Both the position numbers and the translations under genes were made by a program. Below are positions 2,964 to 43,326 of a stretch of 43,326 nucleotides of DNA, one piece after another (position 1 is the stretch's first letter; each line of letters begins with the position of its first letter). Origin of the DNA: a bacterium (GTDB lineage Bacteria; Patescibacteriota; Minisyncoccia; Moranbacterales; UBA2206); contig JAJYGF010000019.1 of NCBI GenBank assembly GCA_021785125.1, positions 1 to 43,326 of the forward strand. Direction: 5' to 3'. The notes under the pieces are model-generated. The model ran no database searches and had not been told where the DNA came from. It saw only the letters and a program-made list of their open reading frames with translations.

Positions 2964-3005
2964 CCTAAAACGAAGTTTTAGGAATTCCTAAAAATTCGTT
3001 TTAGG
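2964..3005. repeat. Palindromic element (CCTAAA family), intergenic copy A
   Basis: Outer arms CCTAAAACGAA (2964-2974) and TTCGTTTTAGG (2995-3005) enclose the perfect palindrome TTTTAGGAATTCCTAAAA. This is two head-to-head half units of the family also found at 9728-9776 and, as one unit, at 41983-42005. It lies just upstream of the nrnA start on the minus strand, inside the rbfA-nrnA spacer. Confidence 0.75.
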
Positions 3006-9727: not shown

Positions 9728-9776
9728 TTTCCTAAAGCGAAGTTTTAGGAATTTCCTAAAACTTCGCTTTAGGAAA
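9728..9776. repeat. Palindromic element (CCTAAA family), intergenic copy B
   Basis: Two 24-base arms (9728-9751 and 9753-9776) are perfect reverse complements around a single T, each arm itself a near-palindrome with TTCCTAAA and TTTAGGAA ends. It lies between pilin-like genes 2 and 3. As RNA it would form an extremely stable hairpin. It has no U-run, so it is an unlikely simple terminator. Confidence 0.85.
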
Positions 9777-10215: not shown

Positions 10216-10249
10216 AAAACGGCTGGACGGGTTATCCACAGCCGTTTTT
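10216..10249 (+). terminator. Intrinsic terminator containing a DnaA-box-like loop
   Basis: AAAACGGCTG (10216-10225) pairs with CAGCCGTTTT (10239-10248), followed by T-rich DNA. The loop and stem edge include a perfect TTATCCACA (10232-10240). Confidence 0.75.
10232..10240 (+). other. DnaA-box-like TTATCCACA
   Basis: Perfect consensus 9-mer in the loop of the terminator after pilin-like gene 3. Other perfect copies are at 20984-20992 (reverse), 29752-29760 (reverse) and 41586-41594. Confidence 0.4.
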
Positions 10250-13516: not shown

Positions 13517-13544
13517 TTGACAATTTTGATATTTTTGCTATACT
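13517..13544 (+). promoter_or_regulatory. Promoter of nusA operon
   Basis: TTGACA (13517-13522) and TATACT (13539-13544) are spaced by 16 bases. Transcription would start near 13551. Confidence 0.75.
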
Positions 13545-13571
13545 GTCTTTGTAGTAATCCAGTGAAGAATG

Positions 13572-13596
13572 ATCCGCCTGCGGCGGATTTTATTTT
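13572..13596 (+). terminator. nusA: Intrinsic terminator in the nusA leader (probable attenuator)
   Basis: ATCCGCC (13572-13578) and GGCGGAT (13582-13588) form a 7-bp GC-rich stem with loop TGC, followed by TTTATTTTT. It lies about 20 bases after the predicted transcription start and 76 bases before the nusA ATG. No other gene upstream on this strand needs it. Because NusA promotes hairpin-dependent pausing and termination, negative autoregulation by attenuation is a natural hypothesis. Confidence 0.65.
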
Positions 13597-13627
13597 TAAG
13601 AAACCTAATTTAAAAATAGGACGGAAA

Positions 13628-13671: not shown

Positions 13672-14949
13672 ATGGTAAAAAAGAAAACGGCCAAGAATGA
13701 AGAAGCGCAATCCGGAAGATTGGGCGACTTCGGCAGCGCGATCGCACAGATCTGCGAAGAAAAAGGAATCTCCAAAGACAAGGTCATTGAGACGATCGAA
13801 GCCGCTCTGGCTGCCGCTTACAAAAAAGATTACGGAAAGAAAGGCCAGAATATCAAAGCGATTTTCGATGAAAAGACCGGCGCTACGAAATTTTTCCTGG
13901 TCAAAGAAGTTGTGGATGAAACAACCCGTGATTTTACGGTGGAAGAAGAGATCGAGGAGGAGGTTAAGGGGGTTAAGGAGGTAAAGGGAAATGCGGAGGA
14001 CGTCAAGGAGGTAAAGGAGGAAAAGGGAGAAAGCGAGGAAGAAGAAAGACTTTCTCGGTATAATCCGGAGCGAGATCTGACAGTCGAAGAAGCGAAGGAA
14101 TTCAAAGAAGACCCGCAAGTCGGCGATGTGATCGAATTGGAATTGGAAGAAAAAAATGATTATGGACGCGTGGCGGCTCAAACCGCCAAACAAGTCATCA
14201 TCCAAAGAATTCGAGAGGCGGAGAGAGATCAGATGTATGACGAATATAAGAATCGCGAAGGTGAGATCGTGGCCGGCGTGGTGCAGAGAATCGAAGGACG
14301 CAATGTATTTGTCGATCTTGGAAAATCGGTTGGAATCTTGTTTCCATCTGAACAGGTACCGGGCGAAAGTTACCGGATCGGACAGCGATTGAAAGTATAT
14401 CTGGCGAGAGTTGAGGCTGGAAATAAGGGGCCTGGCATCACTTTGAGCCGCATCCATCCGGAAATGATCAAAAAATTATTTGAATTGGAAGTGCCGGAAA
14501 TTTTTGCCGGTACGGTTGAGATAAAATCGATCGCCAGAGAAGCGGGAGAAAGGACTAAGATTGCCGTGGCTTCGACCGAAGAAGGAATTGATCCGATCGG
14601 ATCTTGCGTCGGGCAGAAAGGAACCCGCGTTCAGGCGGTAATCGATGAGTTGGGCGGGGAAAAGATCGACATCATCCTGTGGAATGACGATATTGCTAAA
14701 TTCATCGCGGCGGCTTTGTCGCCGGCCAAAGTTTTGAGGGTGGACGTGAAGGAGGCGCAAAAGGAGGCGGCGGTGTCCGTTCCGGAAGACCAGCTGTCAT
14801 TGGCGATCGGAAAGAAAGGACAGAATGTGCGTCTGGCGGCCAAACTAACGGGTTGGAAGATCGATATTTTGGGAGTGAAGTCGCAGGGAGAGAACGTGGA
14901 GGAGGTCAAGGAGGAAAAGGGAGAAGGTGAAGAGGAAGCGCAGGAATAG
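13672..14949 (+). CDS. nusA: Transcription termination/antitermination protein NusA
   Basis: 425 aa. The N-terminal RNA polymerase-binding domain begins near residue 15 (FGSAIAQICEEKGISKDKVIETIEAALAAAY). An S1 domain follows around 197-255 (EGEIVAGVVQRIEGRNVFVDLG). KH1 and KH2 include PEIFAGTVEIKSIAREAGERTKIAV and the GxxG-type SCVGQKGTRVQAV, and the final QLSLAIGKKGQNVRLAAKLTGWKIDI. NusA binds elongating polymerase and modulates pausing, termination and antitermination. Within the N-terminal domain, 13938-14053 encodes a Glu/Val/Lys-rich low-complexity insert (EVKGVKEVKG...), and a related tail closes the protein. Similar repeats occur in FtsK. There is no AR2-type acidic repeat domain as in E. 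coli. Start ATG 13672; no clear Shine-Dalgarno. Confidence 0.95.
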   Translation: MVKKKTAKNEEAQSGRLGDFGSAIAQICEEKGISKDKVIETIEAALAAAYKKDYGKKGQNIKAIFDEKTGATKFFLVKEVVDETTRDFTVEEEIEEEVKGVKEVKGNAEDVKEVKEEKGESEEEERLSRYNPERDLTVEEAKEFKEDPQVGDVIELELEEKNDYGRVAAQTAKQVIIQRIREAERDQMYDEYKNREGEIVAGVVQRIEGRNVFVDLGKSVGILFPSEQVPGESYRIGQRLKVYLARVEAGNKGPGITLSRIHPEMIKKLFELEVPEIFAGTVEIKSIAREAGERTKIAVASTEEGIDPIGSCVGQKGTRVQAVIDELGGEKIDIILWNDDIAKFIAAALSPAKVLRVDVKEAQKEAAVSVPEDQLSLAIGKKGQNVRLAAKLTGWKIDILGVKSQGENVEEVKEEKGEGEEEAQE

Positions 14950-28233: not shown

Positions 28234-28572
28234 ATGGAAAATAATAATAAAAAAGAAATAACACTCGAAGATTTAGCAGAATTGATTAAATCTACAGAAA
28301 AGAGCTTAAGCGCAAAGATTGAAACTTCAGCCGAAGAATTGGCAGTCATGACGCAAAAACACTTTCTAACATTGGAAGCCGATATGAAAGAAATAAAAAC
28401 TGATGTCGAGGTATTGAAGTCTGATTTAGGGGTTGTAAAAAATGATGTTGGAGAGATTAAAGCGAATATGAATAAAAAGGTTGATATCTTTAAGCATAAT
28501 GAGCTTACTTATCGAGTTGAGAAGCTAGAAGATAAGGCTGGGATAATGAGGATGAAGATTGCGACCGCTTGA
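28234..28572 (+). CDS. Coiled-coil hypothetical protein
   Basis: 112 aa, not recognised beyond general form. It is soluble, with heptad-like helices throughout: LEDLAELIKSTEKSLSAKIET, then HFLTLEADMKEIKTDVEVLKSDLGVVKNDVGEIKANM. There is no transmembrane segment and no Cys. Similar short coiled-coil proteins are common in CPR genomes. The coding DNA is more AT-rich than that of the apbE operon. It starts 30 bases after the TsaB-like gene and could be transcribed with it or separately. Confidence 0.6.
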   Translation: MENNNKKEITLEDLAELIKSTEKSLSAKIETSAEELAVMTQKHFLTLEADMKEIKTDVEVLKSDLGVVKNDVGEIKANMNKKVDIFKHNELTYRVEKLEDKAGIMRMKIATA

Positions 28573-28597
28573 CCGACCGCCAAAAATCTGCTATACT
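28569..28597 (+). promoter_or_regulatory. Promoter of the gene at 28666
   Basis: TTGACC (28569-28574) and TATACT (28592-28597) are spaced by 17 bases. The -35 overlaps the stop codon of the upstream coiled-coil gene. Confidence 0.7.
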
Positions 28598-28609
28598 TAA
28601 AATAATCAT

Positions 28610-28637
28610 AAAGACGGGTGAAAAATGCCGTCTTTTT
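28610..28637 (+). promoter_or_regulatory. Leader hairpin with U-run (possible attenuator), copy 2
   Basis: AAAGACGG (28610-28617) pairs with CCGTCTTT (28628-28635), followed by TT. The loop begins GTGAAAA. Stem, loop start and the preceding AATAATC word match copy 1 at 1417-1443. Confidence 0.6.
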
Positions 28638-28665: not shown

Positions 28666-29745
28666 ATGCCTAATTTTGAAACAAAAACAAATCCAAGAGA
28701 GGATTTCGATAAGAACGAAGAAGACGTGGAATCCATAAAAGCGCAGTTCGCTTCCGCGAAATCATCTGAAGAGATGATGGCTTTGGCTAAGAAAATGCAA
28801 GAACTCGAAGGCAATAAAAATGAGATGGTCGGAAATGCGCAAGAAGAAGCAGAGAAAGAAAATGAACAGCGAGATTTGGGCGCTGAAATGGCGAAGGACA
28901 AAGAGGCTGAAATTTTAGCTGCTAAAGAGCTGGCTGATCTAAAATTAAAAGATGCGGCCGAATCTGCCAAAAAAGCCGAAGCATTATTGCAACGAATAAA
29001 AGGAGAAGTGTCTGTTGAAAAAACTGAACCTGTAGCGGTTGAGAATGTCGGACAAGCAAAAGAAATTGGGCAGAAAGATTTAATTGAACAAATAGGAGCT
29101 CCGAAAAGTGAAATGTTTGAAAAATATGGAGAAAAAATGCGTCAAGCCGCGGATGATTTAGTTGAAAATAGGAAAGCTATCGAAGCGAACGAGGAGGCTA
29201 GAAAAAAGGTTGAATATGGGACACCTGAGTGGCAAAAACTATGGGATGAAGGCAGGGCCTTAAATGATCGCAGAAATGAGCTTGCAAGTGATGCTGCCTG
29301 GGGGAGTAATGTGGTTAAATTTCGTGAAGAAAAATCTAATGAAAGCTGGACTAGTTATGGAAATTACAAAAGCGAAGAACTAAGACAATATAGAAGTGCT
29401 GCCCTTGATGATCCATATGTTGTTCTTCGTATGGTGGAGGCGGGAGCATTAGGCATTGATGCACGCGGAGACGGGCTCGCTTATGTGTCAGAGCGTCTTA
29501 TGGGAAATTCTGAATTTGTTAGAGAAGCTTTTAAATTGGCAAAAAAACATGAGGCGGGGTATTCTGGATGGTTTTGGAATAATGTCACTGGAGAGGCTAG
29601 AAGAAATAAAGAGTTATATATTGAAGCCATAAAAACGAACCACTTAAATTATCAATTTGGATCAAATGAATTTAAGAAGGACCCGGAAGTTCAAAGGGTA
29701 GCCCTTGAAAGCGGATTGAATCCGGTATACTTATTTAAGGGCTAG
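28666..29745 (+). CDS. Coiled-coil protein with C-terminal DUF4116-like repeats
   Basis: 359 aa without signal peptide or transmembrane segment. Residues 1-130 are a charged, Glu/Lys/Ala-rich coiled coil. The centre has AADDLVENRKAIEANEEARKKV. The C-terminal 110 residues show weak repeats resembling DUF4116: DDPYVVLRMVEAGALGI, GNSEFVREAFKLAKKH, NKELYIEAIKTNHLNYQFGSNEF, and DPEVQRVALESG. Such repeats occur in many bacterial proteins of unknown function. It shares promoter layout and leader hairpin with the gene at 1455, although the two proteins are unrelated apart from the starts MATFE and MPNFE. The coding DNA is AT-rich. Function unknown. Confidence 0.65.
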   Translation: MPNFETKTNPREDFDKNEEDVESIKAQFASAKSSEEMMALAKKMQELEGNKNEMVGNAQEEAEKENEQRDLGAEMAKDKEAEILAAKELADLKLKDAAESAKKAEALLQRIKGEVSVEKTEPVAVENVGQAKEIGQKDLIEQIGAPKSEMFEKYGEKMRQAADDLVENRKAIEANEEARKKVEYGTPEWQKLWDEGRALNDRRNELASDAAWGSNVVKFREEKSNESWTSYGNYKSEELRQYRSAALDDPYVVLRMVEAGALGIDARGDGLAYVSERLMGNSEFVREAFKLAKKHEAGYSGWFWNNVTGEARRNKELYIEAIKTNHLNYQFGSNEFKKDPEVQRVALESGLNPVYLFKG

Positions 29746-40548: not shown

Positions 40549-41577
40549 ATGGTCGGTTTTACCAAAAAAAGCGTCAGGAGCCTGACTTTGGGCGAAAAAC
40601 TCAAAAGTCTCCGCAACGAAAGAAGGATCACATTGGGCGAAGCTTCGCGCTTTACCAAGATCCAGCAGAAATATCTGGAGTATTTGGAAGAAGGCAACTA
40701 CAAAAAACTGCCGGCGGATGTCTATGTGAAAGGTTTTTTGCGTTCTTACGCTGATTTTCTCGGAGTGGAGGAAAAAATCCTGATAAGATTGTATGAAAAA
40801 GAAAAAGGCATCAAAAAAAATCTGGAAAAAACGAAGCCTGAAAATGTCAAGGTCCGCAAGCCGATAAATATTTCACCTTTCGTCTTTACGCCGAAAATTA
40901 TTGCTGTCTTTTTCGGCATCCTGCTGTTTTTGGGAGGATTTTTTTATCTGTACCGCGAAATGCGCGCTTTTTCCAACGCACCGAAACTGGTCATCTTGAA
41001 TCCGGATCCAAATACGACTTATAATGCCAATTCCATCACTGTCGAAGGCGTGACCGATAAAGACGCCAAGGTCTTCATAAATGACCAGCCGGTTTTGGTT
41101 TCCGATGGCGGCAGTTTTAACGAAGATCTGGCTCTTCAGTCTGGAGCAAATACGATCATAATCAAAGCGGTGAACCGTTTTGGCAAGGAAAGTTCGCAAA
41201 ACATGACGATCCGATCCAATTATCGGGAAGTGGCGGATAAAAGCGGTTCCGGCGGCAATCCCGATCCGTCATCCGGCAATTCTTCGGGCGGTTCCGATCA
41301 GAATCCAGCCTCGTCGGCGCCAAACGGCATCAGCCTAGACGTGAGCGTCGATCCTGGCCCGGTCTGGGTGAGCGTGGAAGCGGACGGCAATCCGGTTTTT
41401 TCCGGAACGATGCTGACTGGGGCCTCGCAGACATTTTCAGCTTCCGACAAGATCGTCATAAACTCCGGCAAGGGCAACGCGACGCATGTAAAATTCAACG
41501 GCAAGGACATCGGAACTTTGAGCAATGATCCCGGCCCGGTCAAGGACGTGACATTTACGAGAGACACGAAATATTGA
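40549..41577 (+). CDS. rodZ: RodZ-like helix-turn-helix membrane protein
   Basis: 342 aa. A cytoplasmic Cro-type HTH (about 13-85, TLGEKLKSLRNERRITLGEASRFTKIQQKYLEYLEEG) is followed by a basic stretch and one transmembrane helix (about 116-136). Outside lies a Big/glucodextranase-like beta domain (KLVILNPDPNTTYNANSITVEGVTD), then a Gly/Ser/Pro-rich linker and a C-terminal DUF4115-like domain (VSVEADGNPVFSGTML...). This is RodZ order with an extra beta domain inserted. RodZ links MreB to the cell-wall machinery; no mreB is in the window. The gene follows ftsK after an AT-only spacer. Confidence 0.82.
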   Translation: MVGFTKKSVRSLTLGEKLKSLRNERRITLGEASRFTKIQQKYLEYLEEGNYKKLPADVYVKGFLRSYADFLGVEEKILIRLYEKEKGIKKNLEKTKPENVKVRKPINISPFVFTPKIIAVFFGILLFLGGFFYLYREMRAFSNAPKLVILNPDPNTTYNANSITVEGVTDKDAKVFINDQPVLVSDGGSFNEDLALQSGANTIIIKAVNRFGKESSQNMTIRSNYREVADKSGSGGNPDPSSGNSSGGSDQNPASSAPNGISLDVSVDPGPVWVSVEADGNPVFSGTMLTGASQTFSASDKIVINSGKGNATHVKFNGKDIGTLSNDPGPVKDVTFTRDTKY

Positions 41578-41585
41578 GCGGAAAG

Positions 41586-41594
41586 TTATCCACA
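41586..41594 (+). other. DnaA-box-like TTATCCACA
   Basis: Perfect consensus between the rodZ-like stop and the promoter of the Kelch protein gene. Confidence 0.4.
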
Positions 41595-41612: not shown

Positions 41613-41641
41613 TTTACATAAAAAAATAATTTTGATAAAAT
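41613..41641 (+). promoter_or_regulatory. Promoter of the Kelch-repeat surface protein gene
   Basis: TTTACA (41613-41618) and TAAAAT (41636-41641) are spaced by 17 bases. A TTATCCACA box lies just upstream (41586-41594). Confidence 0.65.
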
Positions 41642-41660
41642 TAGAAATGTGAAGTGGGTG

Positions 41661-41694
41661 AATTCACAAAGAAGTAATTCTTGTGAATTTTTTT
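41661..41694 (+). promoter_or_regulatory. Terminator-like hairpin across the start region of the Kelch gene
   Basis: ATTCACAA and TTGTGAAT pair, with an inner GAA/TTC stem around GTAA, followed by a run of seven T. It begins about 13 bases after the predicted transcription start. The GTG at 41683 lies in its 3' arm and a second in-frame GTG (41695) directly follows it, so the hairpin could act by attenuation or by hiding the start. Confidence 0.55.
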
Positions 41695-43326
41695 GTGTTC
41701 AGGGGAAAAATACAAACAAAAATAGCCGCCATCAGCAGAGAGAGAAATTTCGCAGTGAGACTTTTTGGCATTTTGGAATTGCTTGTCATTTCTTTGGCAT
41801 GGATGTTTTTGTCCGTGCTGTTTTATTTTCCGCGAAAACTGGTTGTCCGGATCAAAGCCAGAATTTATGCGAAAAAGCAAGTGAAGCTGGCCGGTGAAAA
41901 TAAAAGATTCCGTTGCATCGATCTGCGGGAGATGCGACCTGTCAAAGTTTCTCAAGGAGCTAAGCTCCTTGTGGCGGAAAAATTCCTAAAGCTTCGTTTT
42001 AGGAAAACGGAGAAATCATTCGAAGAGAGATGGGAGAAATTCCAGGAAGAGATCATCCATCTCGTCCATTTCCATGTCAGCAAGAAAGCGGGAAAGAAAT
42101 TCGCTTTCGATATTGCCATAGCATCTTTGATTTTGGTAGTCATCTTTCAGCTTTCGGACTTCGGCCAAGCGGCGACATACACGAACACGTGGACAACGAC
42201 CGCCGATTTCGATTCCAACGCTTCAACCATCGCCAAGGGCGGACAAAACTCCAGTCTGAATCTGCCGACAACCAAAAGCCCAGACTTGACTACGGCTTCC
42301 AATCAGGTGCAAATGACCCAAACTTCGGCGGTCAGAACCGAAAATTCATTCAATGATTTTTCCAAAGGCACCAATACCAATGTTGTCTTGGACAACAACG
42401 CGATCAAAAGCATGCCGACCGCGCTGGCAAACACATGGAGCGGCCCGGGAACGATTGGTGCTGGCGGACAAATGATTAGGAATAGAAATGACGATGATGT
42501 GTATGTTTTGCAAGGAAACGGTGGTACCGGCTTCTACAAATATTCCATTTCAGCCAATGCCTGGACTACGCTGACGGTTGCGCCTGGTGCTATCAATATA
42601 GGCGCCGCCATGATCAGAAACGGTTCCGACGACAGTATCTACGTGTCACAAGGCGGCAACGCTACCGGCTTCTACAAATACTCCATCTCCGGCAATGCCT
42701 GGACGACACTGACGGCTGTGCCGGGAGCGATTGGCGATAGCGGAACCATGATAAGAAACGGTTCTGACGACAGTATCTACGTGTCACAAGGAAACAATGC
42801 AACCGGCTTCTACAAATATTCTATTGCCGGCAATTCATGGACGACGTTGGCGGCCGTCCCTGGTAATGTATATACTGGCGCCGCCATGATCAGAAACGGT
42901 TCCGACGACAGCATCTACGTGTCACAAGGCGGCAACGCTACCGGCTTTTACAAATATTCCATCTCTGCTGGCACTTGGACGACTTTGACCGTCGCGCCGG
43001 GAGCAATCGGTGTGGGCGGCACCATGATCAGAAACGGTTCCGACGACAGCATCTACGTATTACAAGGCGGCAACGCTACCGGTTTTTACAAATATTCCAT
43101 TTCTGCCGGCACTTGGACGACTTTGACCGCCGCGCCGGGAGCAATCGGTGTGGGCGGCACCATGATCAGAAACGGTTCCGACGACAGTATCTACGTGTCA
43201 CAAGGCGGCAACGCTACCGGTTTTTACAAATATTCCATTTCTGCCGGCACTTGGACGACTTTGACCGCCGCGCCGGGAGCAATCGGTGTGGGCGGCACCA
43301 TGATCAGAAACGGTTCCGACGACAGT
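41683..43326 (+). CDS. Anchored surface protein with Kelch-like beta-propeller repeats (3' end cut)
   Basis: The frame is open from a stop at 41659 to the window edge. It has no ATG until the 46th codon, so GTG 41683 or 41695 is the likely start. 548 residues are visible. A helix near 28-48, a basic cytoplasmic stretch and a second helix near 141-157 anchor it. A Ser/Thr/Asn-rich region then leads to repeats of exactly 46 residues, with the core MIRNGSDDSIYVSQGG and FYKYSISAGTWTTL. IYVxxGG and YKYxxxxxxWTTL are the hallmarks of Kelch/galactose-oxidase propeller blades. Seven repeat starts are visible and the array continues past the edge. Residues 90-107 are encoded by two palindromic DNA elements. 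Adhesion or carbohydrate binding is plausible but unproven. Confidence 0.82.
   Translation, partial: MNFFVFRGKIQTKIAAISRERNFAVRLFGILELLVISLAWMFLSVLFYFPRKLVVRIKARIYAKKQVKLAGENKRFRCIDLREMRPVKVSQGAKLLVAEKFLKLRFRKTEKSFEERWEKFQEEIIHLVHFHVSKKAGKKFAFDIAIASLILVVIFQLSDFGQAATYTNTWTTTADFDSNASTIAKGGQNSSLNLPTTKSPDLTTASNQVQMTQTSAVRTENSFNDFSKGTNTNVVLDNNAIKSMPTALANTWSGPGTIGAGGQMIRNRNDDDVYVLQGNGGTGFYKYSISANAWTTLTVAPGAINIGAAMIRNGSDDSIYVSQGGNATGFYKYSISGNAWTTLTAVPGAIGDSGTMIRNGSDDSIYVSQGNNATGFYKYSIAGNSWTTLAAVPGNVYTGAAMIRNGSDDSIYVSQGGNATGFYKYSISAGTWTTLTVAPGAIGVGGTMIRNGSDDSIYVLQGGNATGFYKYSISAGTWTTLTAAPGAIGVGGTMIRNGSDDSIYVSQGGNATGFYKYSISAGTWTTLTAAPGAIGVGGTMIRNGSDDS
41953..42005. repeat. Two palindromic units inside the Kelch protein gene
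   Basis: CAAGGAGCTAAGCTCCTTG (41953-41971) is a unit of the family in the FKBP linker. TTCCTAAA to TTTAGGAA (41983-42005) is a single half unit of the family at 2964 and 9728, differing from the latter by two bases. Both are read in frame, in the cytoplasmic stretch between the two helices. Confidence 0.75.
42472..43326 (+). repeat. 138-bp tandem repeat array (Kelch-like blades)
   Basis: Repeat units start at 42472, 42610, 42748, 42886, 43024, 43162 and 43300, always exactly 138 bases apart. The first is most diverged. The units at 43024 and 43162 differ at only a few bases. The array runs off the window. Confidence 0.95.

Follow-up and report, generated by a model that had tools for sequence, protein, structure and literature searches.

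A GGGTGA-tagged leader with a terminator-like hairpin, specific to the order Moranbacterales, probably precedes a kelch-repeat surface-protein gene

The gene for a kelch-repeat surface protein at the end of the window (the whole 43,326-nucleotide stretch of Moranbacterales DNA analysed here) is preceded by a promoter, the hexamer GGGTGA and a terminator-like hairpin, and this leader is probably one copy of a cis-acting element that is specific to the order. Promoter, motif, hairpin and U tract are coupled far beyond chance and in an order-restricted manner, and the genes that follow them are a biased selection. Most likely the element acts as a terminator-type attenuator read by a trans-acting factor, a reading of the sequences that we hold at about even confidence. 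The features of the surface-protein locus are as follows:

40549–41577, + strand: RodZ-like gene (HTH_25, RodZ_C), stop codon 82 bases ahead of the focal hairpin
41613–41641, + strand: sigma-70-type promoter TTTACA-17-TAAAAT with TG before the −10, promoter score 11
41648–41668, + strand: early hairpin TGTGAA / TTCACA that may compete, with GGGTGA in the loop, ΔG −4.8 kcal/mol
41656–41661, + strand: GGGTGA motif, with T in place of the usual C ahead of it, 14 bases past the −10
41660–41694, + strand: terminator-like hairpin (41660–41690, predicted fold) with seven-T tract (41688–41694)
41683–43326, + strand: kelch-repeat surface-protein gene, running off the contig, with GTG 41683, 41695 and 41755 as candidate starts

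Transcription of the focal leader is predicted to start at ≈41647–41649. The earlier note had described a hairpin followed by seven T between the promoter and the coding region, and promoter, fold and T run were all confirmed; its limits for the hairpin, 41661–41684, were slightly short, since the 3′ arm reaches into the T run. The fold has a ΔG of −11.1 kcal/mol, with z = −3.7 and −3.2 in two tight windows, in neither of which did any of 200 shuffles fold as well. Its 5′ strand opens with the GA of GGGTGA and leaves GGGU unpaired, which is the layout of family f5, and it starts at position +4 of the motif, a start shared by members L141 and L167. When the focal leader alone was folded, the early hairpin and the terminator hairpin were mutually exclusive. 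The heptamer here is TGGGTGA, an exact match to GGGTGA that departs from CGGGTGA at the first base. No ortholog of the N-terminal region of the surface protein was found among 55 relatives, and 384 genomes of the taxonomic class gave weak partial matches only. The site has a strong promoter within the range of 9–30 bases upstream of the motif, a U-tract hairpin overlapping the motif and an envelope-type gene downstream, and from this layout and the motif we take the focal leader to belong, probably and in slightly diverged form, to the GGGTGA leader class. An intrinsic-terminator-like hairpin with a U tract between promoter and gene is also the layout of a terminator-type attenuator.

The surface protein belongs to the repeat proteins: it carries kelch repeats and, at its N-terminus, hydrophobic segments. 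Its first in-frame GTG, at 41683, does lie within the 3′ arm of the focal hairpin, as had been claimed for the first candidate start. However, this codon has no Shine–Dalgarno sequence and adds little coding signal; it is probably not the real start, and its overlap with the hairpin is probably incidental. Both GTG 41695 and GTG 41755 are located 3′ of the hairpin, and because the likely start codons of the other leaders of the class lie downstream of their hairpins, one of these two is the likelier start. Two repeated sequences were observed at this locus. A palindromic repeat, CCTAAA-N-TTTAGG, occurs in 11 copies in the genome (0.3 expected), often as tandem pairs, with window copies at 41985–42003, 2964–3005 and 9731–9773 and others on contigs C4, C5, C16 and C22; one copy lies in frame within the surface-protein gene, adjoining a second palindrome, CAAGGAGCTAAGCTCCTTG. 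A DnaA-box-like sequence, TTATCCACA, is found at 41586–41594, ≈20 bases upstream of the focal promoter, and again in the window at 10232–10240; there are 33 copies genome-wide, many of them intergenic, compared to ≈8 expected.

The genome was scanned in full (916,793 bases in 24 contigs, the window being contig C6), with genes called by a simple custom caller that places gene starts approximately and promoters scored against the sigma-70 consensus. A good hairpin and T tract followed within 100 bases of 12 of the 99 strong promoters upstream of genes, compared to 0.6 expected from shuffled downstream DNA and 3 on the opposite strand. With a looser promoter cut-off, the corresponding figures were 16 of 216, 1.3 and 5. 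The earlier note had suggested that leader attenuation is widespread in this organism, an idea to be given up if a genome scan showed no enrichment over chance. Hairpins are enriched ≈20-fold after strong promoters; the enrichment is thus real, but “widespread” was an overstatement for ≈12% of strong promoters and 7% of all. Regulation by termination at these leaders is plausible from their sequences. Because four of the twelve promoter–hairpin sites fall in the window, which makes up 4.7% of the genome, the local density is not representative of the genome as a whole.

The three sites that had been listed beside the focal one, at 1417, 13572 and 28610, likewise consist of promoter, hairpin and T run:

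1372–1445, + strand: clear member of the class, promoter TTTACA-17-TATAAT, GGGTGA at 1423–1428, hairpin AAAGACGGGTGAAAACACCGTCTTTTT; gene at 1455–1970, upstream gene divergent
13517–13600, + strand: nusA leader, promoter and hairpin (13571–13590), no GGGTGA; nusA at 13672–14949
28569–28637, + strand: clear member of the class, promoter TTGACC-17-TATACT, GGGTGA at 28616–28621, hairpin AAAGACGGGTGAAAAATGCCGTCTTTTT; gene at 28666–29745 (DUF4116)

The hairpins at 1417 and 28610 are almost one element, AAAGACGGGTGA....CCGTCTTTTT, and further elements of this kind are found on contigs C5, C7 and C15. Treating all four sites as one group holds for 1417, 28610 and the focal site, which share GGGTGA, but not for 13572, where the motif is absent and which is therefore best kept apart. 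The gene at 13672–14949 is nusA by its Pfam domains (NusA_N, KH_5 and S1). In other bacteria, nusA is autoregulated through its leader, by NusA and a leader terminator. Those systems are relevant to the hairpin at 13571–13590, separately from the GGGTGA class, and the strong promoter and terminator-like hairpin upstream of nusA are a candidate for NusA autoregulation.

The earlier note overlooked the conserved GGGTGA, by which a vague likeness among sites becomes an element of the whole order. In a count made without presupposing the motif, it was the most enriched G+C-rich hexamer 6–36 bases after strong promoters of this genome (6 versus 0.18 expected, p = 4e-8). It lies between promoter and hairpin at 6 of the 12 hairpin-bearing strong promoters, including three of the four sites originally listed; conversely, all 6 strong promoters with GGGTGA have a hairpin, compared to 6 of the 93 without (Fisher p = 8e-7). 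Eight genome sites carry GGGTGA 6–32 bases past a promoter: the six intergenic ones, the focal site among them, are each followed by a hairpin with T tract, and the two genic ones are not. A GGGTGA hairpin without a clear promoter was also seen between rpsO and an NYN-domain-like gene (contig C4, position 41836), and could be an ordinary terminator or an internal member of the class.

The focal hairpin might alternatively be the terminator of the upstream rodZ transcript, with the promoter and GGGTGA there by chance or as part of a neighbouring start. rodZ is co-directional with the surface-protein gene and ends 82 bases upstream of the hairpin, and no other good terminator was found between the two genes. 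However, terminators of convergent genes in this genome are mostly at most ≈55 bases from the stop codon, and promoter, GGGTGA and hairpin coincide here as they do in five other leaders of the genome. At site 1417, moreover, the divergent upstream gene makes an upstream terminator impossible, which eliminates it as a general explanation of the class. For the focal site we consider it quite unlikely.

Beyond this genome, the sample comprised 131 genomes of the order, which go under Candidatus Moranbacteria where they carry a name. A covariance model (R1) also matched ordinary terminators and was dropped for counting; promoter-plus-motif patterns were used instead. The pattern TTGA-N17-21-TATAAT-N6-30-GGGTGA, which requires nothing downstream, matched in 67 of the 131 genomes, while the reversed pattern, used as a control, gave few matches. 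Changing the first G of the motif brought the matches near background (13 versus 6 in the control). We read 86 distinct sites, 57 with CGGGTGA and 29 with another base ahead of GGGTGA. A terminator-like hairpin (≤ −7 kcal/mol) with a T run was present at 54 of the 57 CGGGTGA sites, compared to 7.5% after shuffling of the downstream sequence, and a hairpin was present at only 15 of the 29 others, which like the focal site lack the C, a figure that weakens the case for its membership. In the CGGGTGA hairpin leaders, the hairpin never starts later than +4 of the motif, and its 5′ strand always overlaps the motif. The motif itself may be part of the 5′ arm, fall within the loop or stand at the base of the stem (the last in family f5, CGGGTGAGTAATTAGCT...AGCTAGTTGCTCATTTTTT). 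Stem bases outside the motif change while pairing is kept (AT, GC, GT, TA, CG). The hairpin energies resemble those of the terminators between convergent genes in this genome, and in 53 of the 54 tails T fills six or more of eight positions.

Could the same arrangement be a DNA operator, CGGGTGANNNNNCCCG, bound by a repressor just past the promoter? Many copies are partly palindromic, as this would predict. The palindrome is inconstant, however (in family f5 a long stem of unrelated sequence has GGGTGA at its base), loops vary widely and the distance from the −10 ranges from 9 to 30 bases. Because neither palindrome nor spacing is fixed, and since an operator gives the T run of the RNA strand no role, we regard it as highly improbable.

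Another possible reading is a conserved 5′ leader that is no attenuator, in which the hairpin shields the mRNA or governs its translation, and a protein or the ribosome binds GGGUGA to serve stability or initiation. The hairpins start near the predicted 5′ end, and many of the downstream genes have A-rich starts and no Shine–Dalgarno sequence, both as expected of such a leader. Yet a stabiliser needs no U tract, and a U tract is nearly always there. Shine–Dalgarno pairing was rejected as the main explanation of the motif because CAGGTGA, which would match the anti-Shine–Dalgarno sequence better (16S tail ...GGATCACCTCCTTTCT), is not used; a leader peptide was rejected because the frame opened by the GTG of the motif is no longer than a control frame. 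A stabilising or translational leader seems to us rather unlikely overall.

Outside the order the element occurs at close to background level, and it appears from these sequence counts to be order-specific. Among 384 genomes of the taxonomic class, there were 25 matches in the 38 genomes of the order and 10 in the 346 outside it, with 3 for the control. A stringent version of the pattern gave 18 matches in a set of 84,980 species, each represented by a single genome. Most of these were titled Moranbacteria or Moraniibacteriota and others Patescibacteria, Parcubacteria or simply “bacterium”; two, in Anaerolineae and Lachnospiraceae, look like chance. Rfam returned no family at the gathering threshold for the leaders of the window and, at a relaxed threshold, no match to the GGGTGA leaders in 13 related loci. 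A literature search on RNA motifs, leaders and riboswitches in Patescibacteria found nothing relevant. The leader element is probably an unrecorded, shared on/off switch.

Across genomes, the same gene families recur downstream of the leader, mostly within 20–130 bases, and most of these are exported or cell-envelope genes. A hydrophobic N-terminus was present in 47 of the 60 readable downstream ORFs, a count in which related genomes enter repeatedly, compared to 32% of all genes in this genome. The focal kelch-repeat surface gene fits this bias. The commonest downstream gene encodes a membrane protein of 44–58 aa with a CxxC-type head, MEK..CPHC...FAVLVALVPVLTITLFNTVGLL, and a FAVLVALVPxLTxTLF-type tail (behind L066, L069, L195, L203, L204 and others); the one such protein tested had no match in Pfam. 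Further families are surface proteins beginning ...INKQINFQGKVVNTDGTNV, lysozyme-like proteins (GYPIEEMAPFIA..KKESNWG), CAP-domain proteins and the secreted proteins of family f5.

The recurrence of these families bears on the idea that the promoter–hairpin units are themselves small RNA genes of ≈45 nt, with incidental read-through into the next gene. Short RNAs ending at the U tract are indeed predicted, and in several genomes the unit precedes a protein-free stretch before murA or elsewhere. However, with the same gene families following closely in genome after genome, and with no body sequence conserved outside the motif, we find this very unlikely. The protein-free stretches, 100–200 bases long, follow leader units in this genome (contig C15, 20757–21000) and in L078, L132, L198 and L199. 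They share short hairpins, such as CAAGGNATTCCTTG, with a terminator at the end, lie before murA in several genomes, and are possibly an unrecorded small RNA. No partner RNA with TCACCC was seen in the unit upstream of murA.

We return to the attenuator. Because promoter, motif, hairpin and U tract are coupled and the motif always overlaps the 5′ strand of the hairpin, we infer a terminator that a factor can prevent, which entails termination at the hairpin, regulation of that termination and a factor that reads the motif. In the default state, RNA polymerase would halt at the newly made hairpin and U tract, ≈45 bases past the start. As GGGUGA emerges from the polymerase, it would be bound by a trans-acting factor, for which an RNA-binding protein is the likeliest candidate; the 5′ strand would then be unable to pair, and transcription would proceed into the gene. 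More tentatively, and with some doubt, we suggest that a single trans-acting factor, specific to the Moranbacteria order, reads (C)GGGUGA on leaders as they are transcribed and, by antitermination, controls a regulon of surface and envelope genes. If true, bacteria of the Candidate Phyla Radiation, whose gene regulation has hardly been studied and most of which cannot be grown, would possess a hard-wired RNA regulon. An order-wide element tied to surface, lysozyme-like, CAP-domain and small CxxC membrane proteins points to one common control of the cell surface, which is where contact with a host cell would take place.

The closest parallels are the protein-dependent terminator and antiterminator leaders: the RAT of LicT and SacY, and the leaders of PyrR and HutP. 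The arrangement is alike, with a promoter, a short leader, a recognition sequence overlapping an intrinsic-terminator-like hairpin, and the gene. In those systems the protein is known and a longer antiterminator, or a set of repeats, is conserved, whereas in the GGGTGA leaders a motif of 6–7 bases alone is conserved, the hairpin sequence is variable and the factor is hypothetical. Like riboswitches and other Rfam leaders, the element is a cis-acting leader upstream of recurring gene families, but it has no Rfam match and is probably too short for a ligand pocket. In the 5′ UTRs of E. coli, premature termination has been mapped experimentally and is a common mode of control (PMC7815308). The E. 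coli sites share no single tag, whereas the GGGTGA leaders, as a prediction from sequence, carry one tag throughout the order.
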